Source: a virus. Taken from it: a stretch of 40,663 bases of DNA. Below the pieces are notes generated by a model. It was not told where the DNA came from and searched no databases. It saw nothing but the letters and a program-made list of their open reading frames with translations. The stretch covers positions 1 to 40,663 of IMG/VR virus record IMGVR_UViG_3300047409_000217. One strand, given 5' to 3'. The position numbers and the translations under genes were made by a program. Positions 14,858-36,278 of the stretch are shown here, piece after piece (within the stretch, counting starts at the first letter, position 1; each line of letters begins with the position of its first letter).

Positions 14858-15340
14858 CTAATTTAGTCGTGAAAATTCGCCATGAAGCTTTTTAGATGCT
14901 TCGCAATACGCGGCGTGGGCGAGTTCCGGGGTATCGTATTGACCAAGACGGTAGATCACTTTGTCCGATGTTATCGTTGCGCTCCATTTATTCTTATGTT
15001 TCCGAACTCCTTTTAGACCGCTTTTGCTGTGTTTTGAGACTTTTCTGTTTTTCACATTTTCAGAGTGAGTGCAGAGTCTCAAATTGCTCCTTTGATTGTT
15101 CAGCTTATCCCCATCAATATGGTCAACAATTTGCCCGGGCTTTGCCCCAATAATTGACCGATGCAATAACTCTGCCTTGATTCGCTTGTCAACATCTAGA
15201 AAGCAATGATTCACATAACCAGAGTTGTTTATGTGCCAGGCCTTGCCTACCAATCTGTGGGCCTCTGATTCATCGATTTTCACTAGCTTTCCAGCTATTG
15301 AAAACAGTGTCGGACTTAAGCGTAAAATATTTGAAGCCAT
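14858..15340 (-). CDS. HNH homing endonuclease with AP2 domain (copy 1)
   Basis: A 160-residue free-standing homing-type nuclease. The HNH core is D73-H74-I-D-G with N81-N82, N86-L-R and E94-N95; an AP2-like DNA-binding domain follows at about 107-152 (SGLKGVRKHKNKWSATI, LGQYDTPELAHAAY). It lies between the last ejection-type gene and the tail fibre gene, with its own leader hairpin and terminator, so it forms a separable cassette in the late operon. AAGGAA precedes the ATG. It shares architecture, but only limited sequence, with the gene at 20739-21233. Confidence 0.92.
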   Translation of the reverse strand: MASNILRLSPTLFSIAGKLVKIDESEAHRLVGKAWHINNSGYVNHCFLDVDKRIKAELLHRSIIGAKPGQIVDHIDGDKLNNQRSNLRLCTHSENVKNRKVSKHSKSGLKGVRKHKNKWSATITSDKVIYRLGQYDTPELAHAAYCEASKKLHGEFSRLN

Positions 15341-15411
15341 ATTCGTTCCTTGTTAACGATTTGGTTAGAGGACTAATAGGTGTTAGTGCACCTTTTAGTC
15401 CTCGCTATTTT
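15341..15411 (-). other. Conserved hairpin leader of HNH cassette 1
   Basis: On the minus strand the leader reads TAAAATAGCGAG, then a hairpin, then CTCTAACCAAATC and the ribosome-binding site AAGGA. The stem is GAGGACTAA with TTAGTCCTC (15368-15403), with an inner AGGTG/CACCT stem. The second HNH-AP2 gene has the same flanks and a 9-bp stem of different sequence. Coordinates are good to a base or so. Function unknown. Confidence 0.72.
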
Positions 15412-15442
15412 ACTTCGCCTCGGTGGGCGGTTTAGGACTTAC

Positions 15443-15553
15443 ATGCACGAAAAAGATCAATTCAGCCAAGACGGAATCGCCGTACTGATGGTTTTGTGGC
15501 CCGTCGTTTTGGTCGTTATTTGCGTCGTTGCGCTGTTTCTAGCGCTGGTCTAA
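15443..15553 (+). CDS. 36-residue membrane protein, antisense to the late operon
   Basis: A plus-strand frame with AGGA five bases before the ATG encodes a hydrophilic N-terminus (MHEKDQFSQDGIAV) and one membrane segment at about residues 15-36 (MVLWPVVLVVICVVALFLAL). It overlaps the 3' end of the large leftward gene by 15 bp. The clean topology supports it, but such short frames arise by chance. Confidence 0.4.
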   Translation: MHEKDQFSQDGIAVLMVLWPVVLVVICVVALFLALV

Positions 15554-17635
15554 CAGACCGCCACCTATCAGCGCATTCACTTGCGCATTGAGAATTTCCG
15601 GGTCGATATAGGTTCTTTGCGCGGCAGAGTTGACAACTCTCGGGCTTGTTACCGCGCGAGCCGCGCCATAGGCGCCAAGCATTCCACCCGCGGCGGCCAC
15701 CGGCACCACCGGGTTTAGAAGCCCACCAGCAGACAGCAGACCACCACCAGCAATGGCTCCAATCGTTCCGCGTGCTGCCAGGTTCGCACTGGTCCCCGAA
15801 GGATTGGCCCACAGCTTTGAACTGTCCCGCATCATGGACGTGGCTTTTGCTATCGAAGACACGTCATCCATGACCTGCTTGGAGTTCTGAAATCCCGAGA
15901 ACAGCTCTTGCCGCGCCTCTGGCTTCATCTTGTTCCAGTTGGTCAGGAAAGTATCAGGGCTCCAGACTGAGCCGGTGTCGTTCTGATTTCCTGGCCTTGC
16001 AGTGCCGAGCTTTTCGATAACCGTTCCCGCAACGGTGCCGCGCGCGCCTTCAGGAAGCGACTTCTTGACGGCCTGCAGGGTCGATACGTTGTCACCAAGG
16101 GTCTGGTTGAGAAGCTTGTAAGACTGCTCAGGTGCATCGCGGTTGGCGAATGGGGCAACACGATCCAGGCGCTGCAATCCGGCCCTGGTGAAGTCGTTTG
16201 CCCGATTGAATGCCACGGTGGCTTGTGGCCCTGCCTGAGTTGCGGCAGTGCCCATATCACCAGATAGAGAGCCGTACAAAGCGTTCCACTTGCTGCGCGG
16301 AACGGTGCTAACCAGCGAGTTGTCGGCAATCTCGTTGCCCACCAGGGTGCGGGTTTTCTTGACCGCCTCAAAAGGCAGGAGGTTTGTCGAGGAGCCACCG
16401 GGGATATTTCCGGTCACAACCACCTCGGGCTGATTCATGAGTCCACCAGCGCCGCGAGTCGTTGTCACCACCCCTGGCGCAGTTCCGGCCGTATCCTTGT
16501 TGATGGCATCTTCAATGGCCATGATCCTGGCATTTTTGAATTGCTTGGACAACTCGGGGGCGCCCGGAATGTCGGCATTGAGAGCGGAAAGCGTGGACTT
16601 TGTGCCGGATACATTGACTGGAGTGCTGCCCGGAATGAACTCGTCCAGTCTCCCATAGAGACCGGCCTGCTTGTCTTTAAACGCATCCTTGAAGGACTTG
16701 ATGCCCTCTTGAATAGCGACGCCAGACTCAAGCGAGCCGCGATTTTTTGAGGCCAAATCTGCCGCAGCGTTCGCCTTTTCTTGCAGGCCGTTCACGGCGC
16801 TGTCTCGGGCGTTGCGCATCACCTTTACGGCTCCCGGGGTGCTTTGCAGGAGGTTTTCTACGCCACCAACAAGCGAATTACCGGAAGCCAGCCCAAGCGT
16901 CGGATTTTCAACGCCAGCGGCTTTCAGGTCCTGGATTCGCTGCTCCATGTCCTTGCGGCCAGACTCGCCGCCTCGGACCGCGGCCTTCAGGGTGGCCGCG
17001 CCCGCATATTGTGCGGCGGTCGGCAGCAGGCTGGCCGTGATGGCTAGAGCCGGATTTCCAGTGGCATCACCCACGGCCTTACCCGCCAACGTGCCGGCTA
17101 CCGAGAGGGCTCCTTGGTTTGCCGCTTGAGACAATGTTTGTGGCCGGACAATGCCATTTAGCGCACCGCCAGCAGCCTGGAGATAGCCACCCTCATATTC
17201 TGGGTTGACGGCCTGAGTAAAGTATCTGCCGAGCGCGGTTTGCCTTGCCTTGTCCAAGATGTAGGCCCCAGTGCCAAACACATTCTTCCGGTCGTTGGGC
17301 ATGAGCCAATCAGGCGCGGCTTTGCCCGTGATTGCGGTGTATGGCGTACCCATAGCAGCCTTACCCAGGTCAGAGATATTCGCTGCGGTGTCACCCGGAA
17401 GGCCTATCAGGCTTGTAAGCCCCTTGAAATACCCAGTCCCAACGGCGTTTATAGAATCCGCGATGTCTGACCCAGTGCCCTGCTTTGGCTTCTGCACTGG
17501 CGTGGTAACTTGCTCCGCCTTCGGCATGATGCCCGACATGATCGCGTCATACTCGTTTTGAGGCGGCGCAGCACCACCCAGGCCCTGAGCGGCGGTAGCA
17601 AAAGCGGTGTCGTAATCGCTCACTTGACGCCCCAT
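15539..17635 (-). CDS. Ejection / internal virion protein (698 residues)
   Basis: The largest of several proteins between the cupin gene and the fibre gene. It has long Ala/Gly-rich helices, hydrophobic stretches at about 178-215 and 625-670 (GTIGAIAGGGLLSAGGLLNPVVPVAAAGGMLGAYGAA), and no enzymatic motif I recognise. Podoviruses carry such proteins inside the capsid and release them to extend the channel for DNA entry. It overlaps the next upstream gene by 16 bp. The role is inferred from order, size and composition. Confidence 0.72.
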   Translation of the reverse strand: MGRQVSDYDTAFATAAQGLGGAAPPQNEYDAIMSGIMPKAEQVTTPVQKPKQGTGSDIADSINAVGTGYFKGLTSLIGLPGDTAANISDLGKAAMGTPYTAITGKAAPDWLMPNDRKNVFGTGAYILDKARQTALGRYFTQAVNPEYEGGYLQAAGGALNGIVRPQTLSQAANQGALSVAGTLAGKAVGDATGNPALAITASLLPTAAQYAGAATLKAAVRGGESGRKDMEQRIQDLKAAGVENPTLGLASGNSLVGGVENLLQSTPGAVKVMRNARDSAVNGLQEKANAAADLASKNRGSLESGVAIQEGIKSFKDAFKDKQAGLYGRLDEFIPGSTPVNVSGTKSTLSALNADIPGAPELSKQFKNARIMAIEDAINKDTAGTAPGVVTTTRGAGGLMNQPEVVVTGNIPGGSSTNLLPFEAVKKTRTLVGNEIADNSLVSTVPRSKWNALYGSLSGDMGTAATQAGPQATVAFNRANDFTRAGLQRLDRVAPFANRDAPEQSYKLLNQTLGDNVSTLQAVKKSLPEGARGTVAGTVIEKLGTARPGNQNDTGSVWSPDTFLTNWNKMKPEARQELFSGFQNSKQVMDDVSSIAKATSMMRDSSKLWANPSGTSANLAARGTIGAIAGGGLLSAGGLLNPVVPVAAAGGMLGAYGAARAVTSPRVVNSAAQRTYIDPEILNAQVNALIGGGLLDQR

Positions 17636-19161
17636 TTAGTCATGCCTGGCAGGCTGAAGATCGACGGCGCACGCTTGGACCACTCGCGGTCAATTTCGGC
17701 AAGGTCGCCCTTCTTCTGGGCGATAGGGAGTGCCTGTTGATAGAACGCAGTTTTCATCTTGTCGCGCTGGGCCTTGGCTTCGGACAGGTCCAGAATGAAG
17801 TTGTTGGCCTCGGTCGTGTTTCCGAGTTGCCCAAAGGTCTTCATGGCGCGGGCCGCATCACCCTCGGTCTGCGGGCCTTTTGCTGCATTCAAGACCGATT
17901 GCAGGCGCTCCATGGCGGCGTTTTGGAAGACCTGGGAACTGGTCGCCAGCATCTTCGAATTGGCCGTGGAAAGGCCAAGGCCATTCAACACGTTTGCTGC
18001 GGCGGCCTTGGTTTCAGTTCCCCAGCCAGTACCACCCATCTGAGTGATGGCATTGCGGGCAACGCGCACGCCTGCCAACATGTCGTCAGTCGGCCCCATG
18101 CTGGCGATGACCGGCTCGTAGCTTGTACGCAGCCAGGTTTCATTGACCTTGCCACCGGCCTCTGCGGAGAGCTTTTGTGCCGTCGTTTGGGTGCGTTGAA
18201 CCCCTGGAGCCTGCGCGGTAGCAACCGGCACGCGCTGTGCCTGGGCTTGGAGGTCAGCAAGATAGTTCTGTAGTTGGGCCTTTGAGGCCGGATCGGCGAC
18301 CTTGGCGAGGTCTGCCGTCGTCTGCTGAATCTCGCGCTGAATGGCCTGCGGATCAGCCCCCATTCCGCCCTGCACGGCGGTGCGCATGTCGGCCTCGCCG
18401 GCCGTGGGGGCTTGGCGTGGTGCCGCGCCTTGCCCGCCGAGCACAGACGATTTCGGAACAGAGCGAGTCTCGCCATTCGGGCCAAGCACATCAACCATTT
18501 CATAGTTGGCCTTGGCACCCTCGGTAGCGGAGGTTTTGGCGCCCTCAATTACACCTTGAGAGGCGGCGTATCCGGGCAAAGGAGCGTAGAAGCCGTTCGC
18601 GTCAGGCGCAATGCCTTCGCCGACCTTGGGCATGAAGCGCTCTTTGCCAGTTGTCCGGTCTTGATAAGTGGAACCCTGCTCAAGCTTCAGCGGATCTTTT
18701 GCCCACTTGTAAGCATCCAGAAGATCAGGACCATTGAAGGCCTTTAGCCCGGCGACTTGGTCAATGGTCAGGTTGGCGAGACGGCTTCCGCCCTGTCCTT
18801 GTGGCGCCTGCATGCTTGGGGGCATCGTAGGACCCATGCCGTCAGCAGATGGAACAAAAGCACCGGGAGACGTAGTGGGTTGCGTGTCAGCGCCCTGCCC
18901 AAAAATGCCTTGAAGCATCTTGGAGAGCTGAAGTTGCTTATCCAAGGCGGCGGCGCGGGTCGCGTTCTGGCTGGAGTTCTCGTCAATCTGCGACTGCATC
19001 AGCTTGGTCTTGAGCTGGTTCTGCTTCTGCGCATCCATGCCCTGCATCGCCATCTGCACGCGCTGGCCGAGGCTCATTGGGGTGGGCGAATAGCCACCAG
19101 CCGCGAGCAGACCAATGCCCAGGCGGGCATCATCGCTACCGAGTGCGTCAAGGAGTCCCAT
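17620..19161 (-). CDS. Ejection / internal virion protein (513 residues)
   Basis: A 513-residue helical protein rich in Gln, Ala and Gly (MGLLDALGSDDARLGIGLLAAGGY, AMQGMDAQKQNQLKTKLMQSQ). The N-terminal glycine/alanine membrane-like segment followed by a Gln-rich coiled-coil part is typical of DNA-ejection proteins in P22-like and BPP-1-like phages. It overlaps both neighbours by 1-16 bp. No catalytic motif is evident. Confidence 0.7.
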   Translation of the reverse strand: MGLLDALGSDDARLGIGLLAAGGYSPTPMSLGQRVQMAMQGMDAQKQNQLKTKLMQSQIDENSSQNATRAAALDKQLQLSKMLQGIFGQGADTQPTTSPGAFVPSADGMGPTMPPSMQAPQGQGGSRLANLTIDQVAGLKAFNGPDLLDAYKWAKDPLKLEQGSTYQDRTTGKERFMPKVGEGIAPDANGFYAPLPGYAASQGVIEGAKTSATEGAKANYEMVDVLGPNGETRSVPKSSVLGGQGAAPRQAPTAGEADMRTAVQGGMGADPQAIQREIQQTTADLAKVADPASKAQLQNYLADLQAQAQRVPVATAQAPGVQRTQTTAQKLSAEAGGKVNETWLRTSYEPVIASMGPTDDMLAGVRVARNAITQMGGTGWGTETKAAAANVLNGLGLSTANSKMLATSSQVFQNAAMERLQSVLNAAKGPQTEGDAARAMKTFGQLGNTTEANNFILDLSEAKAQRDKMKTAFYQQALPIAQKKGDLAEIDREWSKRAPSIFSLPGMTKWGVK

Positions 19162-19718
19162 TAGTTACCCCCTCGCTGCAGGCGTGGATCGTTCGGGTTG
19201 TGGGTGTAGTCGAGGACGTACTGTCCATCATAGATCGGGATAAGCGGCATGTCCTGCTGTGCGGGAGCCGCGGCCGGGGCAGCAGGAGCCGGAATCCCGC
19301 CATTAGCAAACGGGTTATTCGTGACGTTCATGTTCACCGGGTTCATGCTCGATGTCCCGCCAAAACCCAGATTCCCGCCAGCGTTGAAGTTGATCCCTGC
19401 AGGCTTAGCACGGGGATTCGTTCGGTCAAAGCCTGGCTGGTTGCTAATCTGGCTAAGAAGGCTTGGAACCACCGCATTTGTGTAGGCATTGCCCTGCGAC
19501 AACTGCCCATAGGCCTGCTGCTGCTGCTGGTTGAAAGGGTTGTTTTGGTAATAGCCCTGCAGGCCCTGGCCCGTCGTGATCTGCTGACGAAGCCACGGAT
19601 CGGCCGCCGACCACGGGTCTTTCGATACGGTTTGCGTTTGAGAAGGCTGGCTACCGCTGCCGTCAGAAAGAAGTCCACCAACAGCCCCGGCGACTGGGCC
19701 AATCCATGAAAGCGGCAT
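19161..19718 (-). CDS. Virion protein, possible ejection protein (185 residues)
   Basis: A 185-residue protein with a hydrophobic N-terminus (WIGPVAGAVGGLLSDG), a Gln/Asn-rich middle (YYQNNPFNQQQQQAYGQLSQG) and a Pro/Ala-rich linker. Sequences of this kind lie next to ejection proteins in many podoviruses. Its stop overlaps the start of the 513-residue gene by one base. Function inferred from neighbourhood. Confidence 0.65.
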   Translation of the reverse strand: MPLSWIGPVAGAVGGLLSDGSGSQPSQTQTVSKDPWSAADPWLRQQITTGQGLQGYYQNNPFNQQQQQAYGQLSQGNAYTNAVVPSLLSQISNQPGFDRTNPRAKPAGINFNAGGNLGFGGTSSMNPVNMNVTNNPFANGGIPAPAAPAAAPAQQDMPLIPIYDGQYVLDYTHNPNDPRLQRGGN

Positions 19719-19719
19719 A

Positions 19720-20034
19720 TCAGTGCTCCTCGATTAATGTGTGATCGACCTTCTCGGGGTCGGTTTCTTTGGTGGCATGGACGCAGAACCACACCACGTC
19801 AGTGAGAGATTCAACGGAGTGAGCTTTCCCCGCCTCAATCAGGATGCAGGCCGGACCATCAACGCGGCGCGACTCTCCGTCAATACGAACAATCACGGAG
19901 CCTCGCCCGAGAATTGACAGGTGGTCATGCGTGTGAATGTGCTTCCCCACGATCTGCCCTGCCGGGACTTCAATTTCCTTGGCGTATACCCCACCGCCAA
20001 AGTGGTGCAGGATTTTCAAATCTGAGAGTTGCAT
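19720..20034 (-). CDS. Cupin-fold protein
   Basis: A 104-residue single-domain cupin. Motif 1 is visible as GKHIHTHDHLSILGRG with three histidines placed to bind a metal, and motif 2 as AGKAHSVESLTD with another histidine. Cupins bind metal and small molecules or sugars. It sits tightly between two virion genes (1-2 bp gaps), so it may be a structural or assembly factor rather than a metabolic enzyme. AGAG is upstream of the ATG. Confidence 0.82.
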   Translation of the reverse strand: MQLSDLKILHHFGGGVYAKEIEVPAGQIVGKHIHTHDHLSILGRGSVIVRIDGESRRVDGPACILIEAGKAHSVESLTDVVWFCVHATKETDPEKVDHTLIEEH

Positions 20035-20036
20035 GA

Positions 20037-20675
20037 TCAGCCTGCCGAGTAGGCCGATGGATTGTTGTAAGGCGTGCCACCGTAGTTGTAGCCGCCGTTT
20101 CCGTTGGTCTGGCCCGTGCTCGGGAACCAGCTATTCCAGAGCGATGATCCGAGCTGCGCGCCGCCAATTGCGGATGTCAACGGGCTTGTTCCGCCTGAGG
20201 TAGAGCCGGTCCCGGTAGAAGTTCCATAGCCCTGGCCCAGACCATTCGCCGTGTTCGCAAAGCCCTGGTAATAATTCAATGGCGTGTTCTGGATCTGCGT
20301 CCCGAAGCCGAGATTTTGCTGATTGTTCTGATTCTGGAAATTCATCAGATTCATGCCGGTGGCGATGGTCTGCTGGTTTTGTCCAAACTGATCGTTGTAG
20401 AGCCCACGATCAAAATTCTGGTCGAACTGGTAGTTGTTCGAACGCATGTCGTTGGCTTGACGACCGAGAGAGGTCTGGAGCTGGCGCTGTGCCTCCCCCT
20501 GCATCTGGTCTACACCAGAGTTGCCAAACGAGCCGGAACGCACCATTGCCGACGTATAAGCCGGCGCTGTGGTCATGTTGTAGGCGCGAGTCGTGTCCGC
20601 CAGGGAGTCGTCAATGGACTTCTGGAGATACGGATTACTTGCAGCGCCGAAGCCGAGATTTGTTGAATCTGCCAT
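20037..20675 (-). CDS. Virion protein, possible ejection protein (212 residues)
   Basis: A 212-residue protein extremely rich in Asn, Gln, Gly, Ser and Tyr (FDRGLYNDQFGQNQQ; MNLMNFQNQNNQQNLGFGTQ). It begins MADSTNLGFGAASNPYL at 20675, where GGAGAAATTA precedes the ATG. The composition and place, first in the ejection group, suggest an internal virion protein. No domain is recognisable. Confidence 0.68.
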   Translation of the reverse strand: MADSTNLGFGAASNPYLQKSIDDSLADTTRAYNMTTAPAYTSAMVRSGSFGNSGVDQMQGEAQRQLQTSLGRQANDMRSNNYQFDQNFDRGLYNDQFGQNQQTIATGMNLMNFQNQNNQQNLGFGTQIQNTPLNYYQGFANTANGLGQGYGTSTGTGSTSGGTSPLTSAIGGAQLGSSLWNSWFPSTGQTNGNGGYNYGGTPYNNPSAYSAG

Positions 20676-20694
20676 TAATTTCTCCGTCAGAAAC

Positions 20695-20718
20695 GAAAAA
20701 GCCACCCGTAGGTGGCCT
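20695..20718 (-). terminator. Intrinsic terminator after HNH-AP2 gene 2
   Basis: On the minus strand GCCACC and GGTGGC pair around TACG and are followed by TTTTTCGTTTC. The arrangement AAGGCC-stem-TTTTTC.TTTC matches that of the terminator behind HNH cassette 1, though the stem sequence differs. Confidence 0.82.
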
Positions 20719-20738
20719 TAGAAAAGTTTTCGTGGCTG

Positions 20739-21233
20739 CTAAATGGTGCAGCCTGCGTGCAATAGCCTTTTGGCTGTTACGTATGCTTGATGCGCCTCTT
20801 CTGGTGTATCGAAGCATCCCAATGAAATGAACTTGCCATCACTTTGAATTCGCGCCCTCCAGCGGCCCTGATGACGGTGGGCACCAAGAACCCCCGTGGA
20901 ATTACTACTTCTTGCCCGGCGTATGTTTTGGAGATTTTCGCCCGCCGTAACATCTCGCAGATTCACCCATCGGTTATCGTCACGAACACCATTTATATGG
21001 TCTGCTTGGCCCAGTGGAAAATTACCAGTCTGGAACAGGAAGGCAAGCCTATGTGCTCCAAATTCTGAACCATCCACCCCTATCATCCGATACCCGTAGC
21101 CATCTATGCTGCCGGCAACATTGCCGACTTTCACGCGGTTACTTGGGCACCGAATCCAGTGAAATTTTCCAGTTTCTGCGTCGTAAGAGAGGACTTCACG
21201 CAAACGCTCTGCGGTAAGATTGGCCTTAGCCAT
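20739..21233 (-). CDS. HNH homing endonuclease with AP2 domain (copy 2)
   Basis: A 164-residue nuclease. An HNH core is seen with H61 (HRLAF), D78-H79-I-N-G, N91-L-R and E99-N100, followed by an AP2-like domain at about 112-156 (TGVLGAHRHQGRWRARI, LGCFDTPEEAHQAY). AAGGAGTCATC before the ATG at 21233 decides the start; an in-frame extension to 21281 runs into the leader hairpin. It separates a tail/head protein gene from the ejection group, and with its leader and terminator makes a cassette like that at 14.8-15.4 kb. Confidence 0.92.
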   Translation of the reverse strand: MAKANLTAERLREVLSYDAETGKFHWIRCPSNRVKVGNVAGSIDGYGYRMIGVDGSEFGAHRLAFLFQTGNFPLGQADHINGVRDDNRWVNLRDVTAGENLQNIRRARSSNSTGVLGAHRHQGRWRARIQSDGKFISLGCFDTPEEAHQAYVTAKRLLHAGCTI

Positions 21234-21307
21234 GATGACTCCTTGATAGTCGGATTGGTTAGAGCCCGCATCGCTTTGCAAGAGCCTTGCGGGCTCGCCT
21301 ATTTTAG
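21234..21307 (-). other. Conserved hairpin leader of HNH cassette 2
   Basis: On the minus strand TAAAATAGGCGAG, a hairpin, then CTCTAACCAATCC and AAGGAG. The stem is GAGCCCGCA with TGCGGGCTC (21262-21296). Flanks match the leader of cassette 1 nearly base for base, while six stem pairs differ and stay paired. The spacing from hairpin to start codon is also the same to within a base. Confidence 0.74.
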
Positions 21308-21333
21308 CGCAGAGCCAGCCTTTCTGCCATGTT

Positions 21334-35855: not shown

Positions 35856-36278
35856 AGATTTCTCCTTGATGTTGATGGCGTGCCCGGCAGGATTCGAACC
35901 CGCAACCCCGGAGGTCGAAGCTCCGTGCGCTAATCCAATTGCGCCACGGGCACATTTATCTGATTCAAAAGTTCGCTGGCGCTTGACCAGCGAGACGACT
36001 GCGGCAACCTTGCGGCTTACACCCTGTTGTGTTTCACGGTAAGTCAGCGCCTTGTTCCATTCGCCCGGCGTCAGTTCCCTGTTTCCCCGCTTGTTGTTGC
36101 ATGCCTTGCATGCTGGGCGAAGGTTTTCAGGCTTGTGACCGCCTTCCATGCTTTGCGCGACAAGGTGGTCTGCGGTAGCCGTCTTGCGGGTCAACACGCA
36201 GCCACACATCCAACATTTCTGCGTGCGCCCGCCTGCGAACGTCGCATTTAGGTATTCGCGGACTTGTGGGACGCTCAC
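35685..36278 (-). CDS. HNH endonuclease, frame open through the tRNA gene
   Basis: A GTG with GGAGG upstream, overlapping the preceding stop as GTGA, starts an HNH protein. The nuclease part (residues about 22-75) has CWMCGC, the catalytic ATADHLVAQ, and NLRPACKACNNKRG. After about 108 codons the frame enters the tRNA-Arg without a stop, passes through it (the telltale ARGAIGLAHGASTSGVAGSNPAGH translation) and continues in frame into the next small gene, ending at 35685. The nuclease proper probably ends near 35954; its true 3' end is unclear. Confidence 0.72.
   Translation of the reverse strand: MSVPQVREYLNATFAGGRTQKCWMCGCVLTRKTATADHLVAQSMEGGHKPENLRPACKACNNKRGNRELTPGEWNKALTYRETQQGVSRKVAAVVSLVKRQRTFESDKCARGAIGLAHGASTSGVAGSNPAGHAINIKEKSMKTQLWLTETERDLVETALKAFLEQADAELVGPANKRCRGYVARRIAAMLARVEKK
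35876..35953 (-). tRNA. tRNA-Arg (anticodon UCG)
   Basis: A full cloverleaf on the minus strand: acceptor GTGCCCG/CGGGCAC, D arm GCGC/GCGC, anticodon stem CGGAG/CTCCG with loop CTTCGAC (anticodon UCG, reading CGA), T arm GCGGG-TTCGAAT-CCTGC, discriminator G at 35879 and an encoded CCA at 35876-35878. It lies in the leftward early operon between the HNH gene and a small gene, so it would be cut from a longer transcript. Confidence 0.95.

Follow-up and report, generated by a model that had tools for sequence, protein, structure and literature searches.

SymR-type antisense RNA genes predicted at the starts of viral homing endonuclease genes

In Escherichia coli the antisense RNA SymR represses translation of symE; the promoter of SymR is located within the symE open reading frame (ORF), and the sense promoter is repressed by LexA (PMC1891008; PMC3874152). 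The action of SymR in E. coli is mainly on translation (PMC1891008). Regulation of the T4 homing endonucleases, as reviewed, is through hairpins in the messenger RNA (mRNA) and promoter choice (PMC2988022). Here, the leaders of two HNH-AP2 homing endonuclease genes were analyzed in IMG/VR virus record IMGVR_UViG_3300047409_000217 (40,663 bases, the whole of which is referred to as the window). Each leader is very probably a SymR-type cis-antisense RNA gene that overlaps the start of its homing endonuclease gene and has been recruited as a translational brake. Antisense RNA control of homing endonucleases was not found reported in a search of the open-access literature.

The two leaders and the strand that folds

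Both HNH-AP2 genes are encoded on the minus strand of the window, and their protein products are 40% identical across 90 amino acids. The assignment of both to the HNH-AP2 type, made in an initial annotation of the window, was borne out by Pfam matches to HNH_3 and AP2.

14858..15340, minus strand: HNH-AP2 homing endonuclease 1, 160 amino acids (HNH_3, 1.3e-10; AP2, 2e-7)
20739..21233, minus strand: HNH-AP2 homing endonuclease 2, 164 amino acids (HNH_3, 3.6e-11; AP2, 5.8e-6)
15347..15351, minus strand: Shine-Dalgarno AAGGA of HNH gene 1, within the span of predicted antisense RNA 1 (read from the sequence)
21239..21244, minus strand: Shine-Dalgarno AAGGAG of HNH gene 2, within the span of predicted antisense RNA 2 (read from the sequence)

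Upstream of each gene the same layout was found, in which TAAAATAG(G)CGAG is followed by a hairpin, CTCTAACCAA and the Shine-Dalgarno sequence. The arms of the hairpin stem are GAGGACTAA/TTAGTCCTC in one leader and GAGCCCGCA/TGCGGGCTC in the other, such that GAG/CTC and two other pairs are constant and four pairs are altered on both arms; the leader positions, stem arms and four double changes are exactly as first annotated. The full leader pattern occurs twice in the window with no control matches, and the folding energy of both leaders is far under that of shuffled sequences. When IMG/VR was searched with the strict pattern, 65 stretches within a narrow length range were detected, and at least 120 were detected when the TAAAATAG part was left free. 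A family set of 115 non-redundant leaders was drawn from these pattern matches.

Stems of folded RNA tolerate G.U pairs and do not tolerate A.C, and the two kinds of mispair thus report on the strand that folds. When hairpin 1 was read on the nuclease strand, 63 A.C were counted vs 6 G.U (115 leaders; helices with at least 6/8 Watson-Crick pairs), and at the outer nine positions of all 115 leaders the counts were 71 vs 9. For hairpin 2, which adjoins the Shine-Dalgarno sequence, 90 A.C vs 9 G.U were found on this strand, compared to about 75 vs 37 in the shuffled control. The asymmetry was significant for both hairpins (p 4e-13 for hairpin 1 and 4e-8 for hairpin 2). Folding energy was lower for the antisense strand in 108 of the 115 leaders, with a mean of -35.3 vs -27.9 kcal/mol. 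By these counts, a hairpin selected within the nuclease mRNA, as in the T4 type, is not what was found; the excess of A.C over G.U on the nuclease strand in both hairpins instead indicates that the folded RNA runs opposite to the nuclease gene, i.e., on the plus strand of the window.

A helix between the linker and codon 2 points to the same strand. In the alignment fold, AGCCA at the antisense 5' end forms a helix with UGGUU, which is complementary to the conserved TAACCA linker; in the sense view, the linker TAACCA pairs with ATGGCT. This closing helix includes a G.U pair that is nearly invariant on the antisense strand (102 of 104). E. coli symE begins with ATGACT and has the linker TAATCA, which would be a compensatory change, and mixed forms were therefore searched for. 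Combinations that form a proper stem were found at least 81 times for TAACCA with ATGGCT and 25 times for the matched TAATCA with ATGACT, compared to a single case each of TAATCA with ATGGCT (a spurious frame of 18 amino acids) and TAACCA with ATGACT (Fisher p 3e-22 for this covariation). A likeness of GCTCTAACC/TGGTTAGAG to boxA/boxB or to a transfer RNA (tRNA) D-arm was abandoned upon finding of the linker/codon-2 pairing.

Predicted antisense RNAs and the facing promoters

A covariance model, R1, was built from 104 nuclease leaders only, with window leader 1 as one of its rows. Both window copies were recovered by this model, and the parts of the two predicted antisense RNAs on the plus strand were as follows.

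15335..15412, plus strand: predicted antisense RNA 1, 78 nucleotides (nt); R1 match at 15320-15414 (+), expect value (E) 1e-15
15323..15328, plus strand: antisense promoter -10 box TAAAAT, within the HNH 1 ORF, 6 nt to the predicted +1 at 15335
15335..15366, plus strand: 5' hairpin of antisense RNA 1, with the AGCCA/UGGUU closing helix and an inner stem
15368..15403, plus strand: second hairpin of antisense RNA 1, which is the hairpin first annotated (stem asymmetry, folds)
15404..15412, plus strand: U-rich tail GCUAUUUUA of antisense RNA 1, a candidate terminator end, complementary to the sense -10 box TAAAAT at 15407-15412 (-)
21228..21306, plus strand: predicted antisense RNA 2, 79 nt; R1 match at 21213-21308 (+), E 2.3e-28
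21215..21220, plus strand: antisense promoter -10 box TAAGAT, within the HNH 2 ORF, 7 nt to the predicted +1 at 21228
21228..21260, plus strand: 5' hairpin of antisense RNA 2 (alignment fold, window fold)
21262..21296, plus strand: second hairpin of antisense RNA 2, likewise the hairpin first annotated (stem asymmetry, folds)
21297..21306, plus strand: U-rich tail of antisense RNA 2, complementary to the sense -10 box TAAAAT at 21301-21306 (-)

Predicted antisense RNA 1 has a minimum free energy of -31.3 kcal/mol (z -7.35) and consists of two hairpins and a U-rich tail, with the loop of its 5' hairpin complementary to the Shine-Dalgarno sequence; for predicted antisense RNA 2 the minimum free energy is -33.2 kcal/mol (z -4.51). 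Each is antisense to its own HNH gene across the 5' leader and the start codon.

The conserved block of the leaders was found to run on into the ORF, where ATGGCT is followed by ATYNTA in more than one reading frame. The longer form of this ORF motif, A-T-Y-N-T-A-Y-C, is at +12 in 49 leaders and at +13 in 38, and hence in different frames; its information is 6.6 bits vs 4.2 in shuffles. Of 31 in-frame leucine codons given by the motif, 29 are TTA or CTA, vs 18% elsewhere in the same genes. The complement of the motif is TANRAT, a -10 box. In 92 of 101 leaders this box is 7 or 8 positions away from the T of the codon-2 GCT, which leaves 6 or 7 bases from the box to a start at A. In three leaders (L005, L037 and L040) GCT is codon 3, and the -10 box is displaced along with it. 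Based on box spacing and the codon-2 GCT, the 5' end of the antisense RNA is predicted at base 6 of the target ORF, opposite codon 2 (AGCCAU). Thus, as for SymR, the -10 box lies within the target ORF on the opposite strand, with TANRAT 6-7 nt before the predicted +1 in most leaders. Two other accounts of the ORF motif were examined. A single long-range helix between TAAAATAG and ATYNTA was rejected, as the middle bases vary and TAAAAT is constant, and a hairpin around the motif was present in just a few sequences.

On the sense side, T-A-A-A-A-T is the sole conserved block upstream of hairpin 1; it is a -10 box, and TTGACA is weakly present at a spacing of 17 base pairs (bp). Among 71 leaders not selected for the box, TATAAT was matched at 5/6 or better in 44, vs 4 in the control stretch. 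The U-rich tail of the antisense RNA and the sense -10 box occupy the same bases on opposite strands. A LexA-type box (CTGT-N8-ACAG, with at most one mismatch) was detected at -36/-37 in 7 of the 115 leaders, vs 3 at all other positions combined, and the leaders with this box precede both HNH and GIY-YIG genes, suggesting from their sequence that these may be SOS-inducible homing endonucleases. Neither window leader has such a box; the leaders that have it at this constant position ahead of the nuclease promoter are L012, L026, L049, L050, L092, L095 and L181.

Distribution, mobility and kinship to SymR

The covariance-model search that the initial annotation had proposed revealed many further copies located 5' of nuclease genes, with 1-4 copies in most carrier phages. 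When 112 proteins encoded downstream of the leaders were analyzed by Pfam, matches were to HNH_3 (32), NUMOD3 (16), HNH (16), HNH_5 (16), GIY-YIG (12) and endonuclease VII (4), and PHROG matches were mostly to HNH, endonuclease VII and homing families. HNH and GIY-YIG are folds without relationship, and thus the leader is not bound to one protein. A tie to a single protein family was ruled out, as the leader was present for just 1 of 30 proteins homologous to HNH 2. One phage (L047) carries two nucleases of different class behind identical leaders, the identity dropping off in the first codons.

Cultured phages yielded no clear copy by BLAST with one leader and one leader-gene unit or by R1 across nine chosen phage records. 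The module was found before a GIY-YIG gene on a 41-kb plasmid of Pusillimonas sp. T7-7 (L262, NC_015459.1), which IMG/VR lists as viral and which also bears phage tail and lysozyme genes. The strict leader pattern was further detected in two contigs of Lokiarchaeal metagenome-assembled genomes (L068 and L070), which are probably binned phage DNA; no copy of either was among the matches listed for R1 on those genomes.

Related phages differ from the window at both loci. The whole HNH 2 unit is absent from a 95% identical phage (L199) and from another relative (L201), and an 8-bp direct repeat, ATGGCAGA, flanks the insertion at 21323-21330 and 20668-20675, the empty site of L199 having one copy. 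This repeat could stem from duplication of the target or from a gene start that was supplied again.

20668..21322, minus strand: inserted unit consisting of leader, nuclease, terminator and one ATGGCAGA copy; absent from L199 and L201

In a third relative (L200) the position of leader 1 and HNH 1 is occupied by a plain terminator, and in L199 leader 1 is kept and HNH 1 has a 203-bp deletion. These comparisons indicate that leader and gene behave as one inserted unit. Homologous phages with the leader, without the nuclease and with no stem conservation had been named in the initial annotation as a case against its reading; one relative, L199, corresponds to this only in form, and it looks like a recent decay of HNH 1. 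Other proteins of the window include an SU10-type portal, a large terminase and an integrase by Pfam, and a tRNA-Arg (tcg) gene is located at 35876-35953 on the minus strand.

R1 was also run on bacterial and archaeal genomes. Of 398 Pseudomonadota genomes, 56 had an R1 match at E of 0.001 or below, 42 of these at 32 bits or more, and 195 genomes of an archaeal phylum had six weak matches of at most 30.6 bits. Downstream of the best genomic matches were SymE toxins (Pfam PF08845; L275, L276, L277, L280, L282 and L290), Icd-like host cell division inhibitor genes with a SymR-type RNA at their start (NF033153; L273 and L285, both bacterial genomes), a RadC protein gene (L283), HNH proteins and several proteins without family. 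The RadC-like and family-less genes behind the same RNA (L283, L281, L279, L284, L286, L289, L291, L296 and L301) are candidates for new selfish or toxic genes. SymR of strain K-12 (4579835-4579911, plus strand) has its annotated start at the 6th base of symE, with TAGAAT 7 bases upstream, and folds into the same two hairpins as the window RNAs; two strong adjacent hairpins of about 77 nt were likewise seen in the window, K-12 and alignment folds. With filters off, R1 scored K-12 SymR at 35.9 bits, full length and in register, and many genomic loci were common to R1 and Rfam RF01809 under its cut-off, so that homology is detectable by model. No named motif with these flanks was known in the initial annotation; the leader is SymR-like by anatomy, register and R1 score.

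Proposed mechanism, alternatives and comparison with known systems

The anatomy, strand, covariation, promoter box, overlap with the Shine-Dalgarno sequence and AUG, and kinship to SymR are read from the sequence comparisons above; from these we infer transcription of the antisense RNA, a block of translation and a purpose. Transcription would run backwards from a sigma70-like promoter whose -10 box is located near codons 5-6 of the nuclease ORF, and the RNA would begin opposite codon 2 with the 5' hairpin AGCCA...UGGUU, the loop of which is complementary to the Shine-Dalgarno sequence. The second hairpin would follow directly and then the U-rich tail, to give an RNA of about 78 nt with full complementarity to the nuclease mRNA over the stretch between the mRNA 5' end and codon 2, in which the Shine-Dalgarno sequence and AUG are included. 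Ribosome binding would thereby be blocked, in the manner of E. coli SymR on symE. The nuclease's own promoter (-10 TAAAAT, with a weak -35 at 17 bp family-wide) lies just upstream and overlaps the predicted antisense tail. The purpose we favor is that a resident nuclease would be kept silent and a newly entering one would be expressed in a naive cell or, where a LexA box is present, in a cell with DNA damage. For the late-gene timing suggested in the initial annotation, no support was found.

Several observations weigh against a SymR-type brake. The -35 signal of the antisense promoter is weak, its best score being at 17 bp spacing. Some relatives (L072, L073 and L076) are without the U-rich tail, and because of such relatives intrinsic termination of the antisense RNA is not general and would apply to the window type only. 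Of the 115 downstream proteins, 18 could not be placed by a crude sorting into motif classes; a part of them are clearly truncated or resemble nucleases, and several look otherwise. K-12 SymR is missed by R1 under default filters. At its gathering cut-off of 61 bits RF01809 does not match the window, and around leader 2 it gave no match even at E up to 10; the Rfam scan of the window gave no leader match at gathering, and the matches around leader 2 were only at chance level.

Among the alternatives, it is unlikely that the antisense transcript, while real, works chiefly through transcriptional interference of the facing promoters, or in trans on further copies, instead of through a block of this ribosome site. 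The facing promoters are about 80 bp apart, plasmid-expressed E. coli SymR represses symE in trans (PMC1891008), and some phages have identical leaders before different nucleases (L016/L047). By contrast, interference alone needs no RNA fold, yet the fold is under selection, and in E. coli the effect of SymR is mainly translational (PMC1891008). We consider it improbable that the hairpin works within the nuclease mRNA, similarly to the T4 leader structures that time or limit homing endonuclease translation: A.C is far above G.U on the mRNA strand in both hairpins, the linker/codon-2 helix has a fixed A.C on the sense strand that is G.U on the antisense strand, and the ORF-internal motif is left with no role. 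Selection on a folded RNA controlling nuclease translation, as first proposed, is supported, and its placement in the nuclease mRNA is given up, because the asymmetric stems, the promoter within the ORF and the helix of linker and codon 2 put the RNA on the opposite strand. A DNA structure for movement of the nuclease cassette, also first suggested, is very improbable and not needed, for although leader and nuclease form an inserted unit among related phages and unrelated nucleases stand behind identical leaders, the leader is found in only 1 of 30 HNH 2 homologues, the promoter boxes, 6-7 nt to +1 and Shine-Dalgarno overlap indicate RNA, and E. coli SymR is an expressed RNA.

Returning to the SymR-type brake, we put forward tentatively, as a possibility somewhat short of probable, that this RNA is portable and moves among unrelated selfish genes (HNH, GIY-YIG, SymE, Icd-like and others) by exchange of the 80-nt leader. 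Such a brake would give zygotic induction, with a burst in an RNA-free cell and silence of residents, and would maybe silence incomers with the same leader. To our knowledge, only a few examples of the T4 type show how free-standing homing endonucleases spare their hosts yet are expressed at an empty site. An antisense brake conserved across unrelated nuclease folds, if true, would be a general answer to this problem; SymR, known as an E. coli antitoxin, would become one branch of a large RNA family, and the covariance model of the module would be a pointer to candidate selfish or toxic genes, as in the 42 Pseudomonadota genomes, out of 398, that have a match of at least 32 bits.

For the T4 homing endonucleases I-TevI, I-TevII, I-TevIII, segB and mobE, as well as seg43(25), a structured 5' end of the RNA limits translation or is proposed to do so; those hairpins are in the mRNA and dependent on the promoter used, whereas a separate antisense transcript is predicted here. 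In the EcoRI and Eco29kI restriction-modification systems, nuclease expression is reduced by antisense RNAs from reverse promoters that lie within the endonuclease gene or close to it, and these RNAs are not described as a conserved two-hairpin family across unrelated genes (PMC3874152). The closest system is SymR/symE (RF01809; PF08845), in which the promoter is likewise within the target ORF, the RNA starts at ORF base 6 and there are two strong hairpins. SymR is 77 nt compared to about 78 nt for the module RNA, and both are complementary to their target mRNA along its 5' leader. The closing helix is AGUCA/UGAUU in SymR and AGCCA/UGGUU in the nuclease leaders, and the sense promoter of symE is LexA-regulated; a LexA-type box is present in some nuclease leaders and absent from those of the window. 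The module differs in that its target is a homing endonuclease, the Rfam model is blind to it, it is mainly phage-borne, and it precedes several unrelated protein families; SymE itself is the target at other loci only, the window genes being of HNH_3/AP2 type. Taken together, model comparison places the window leaders with SymR, yet under the Rfam cut-off and with a target other than SymE.

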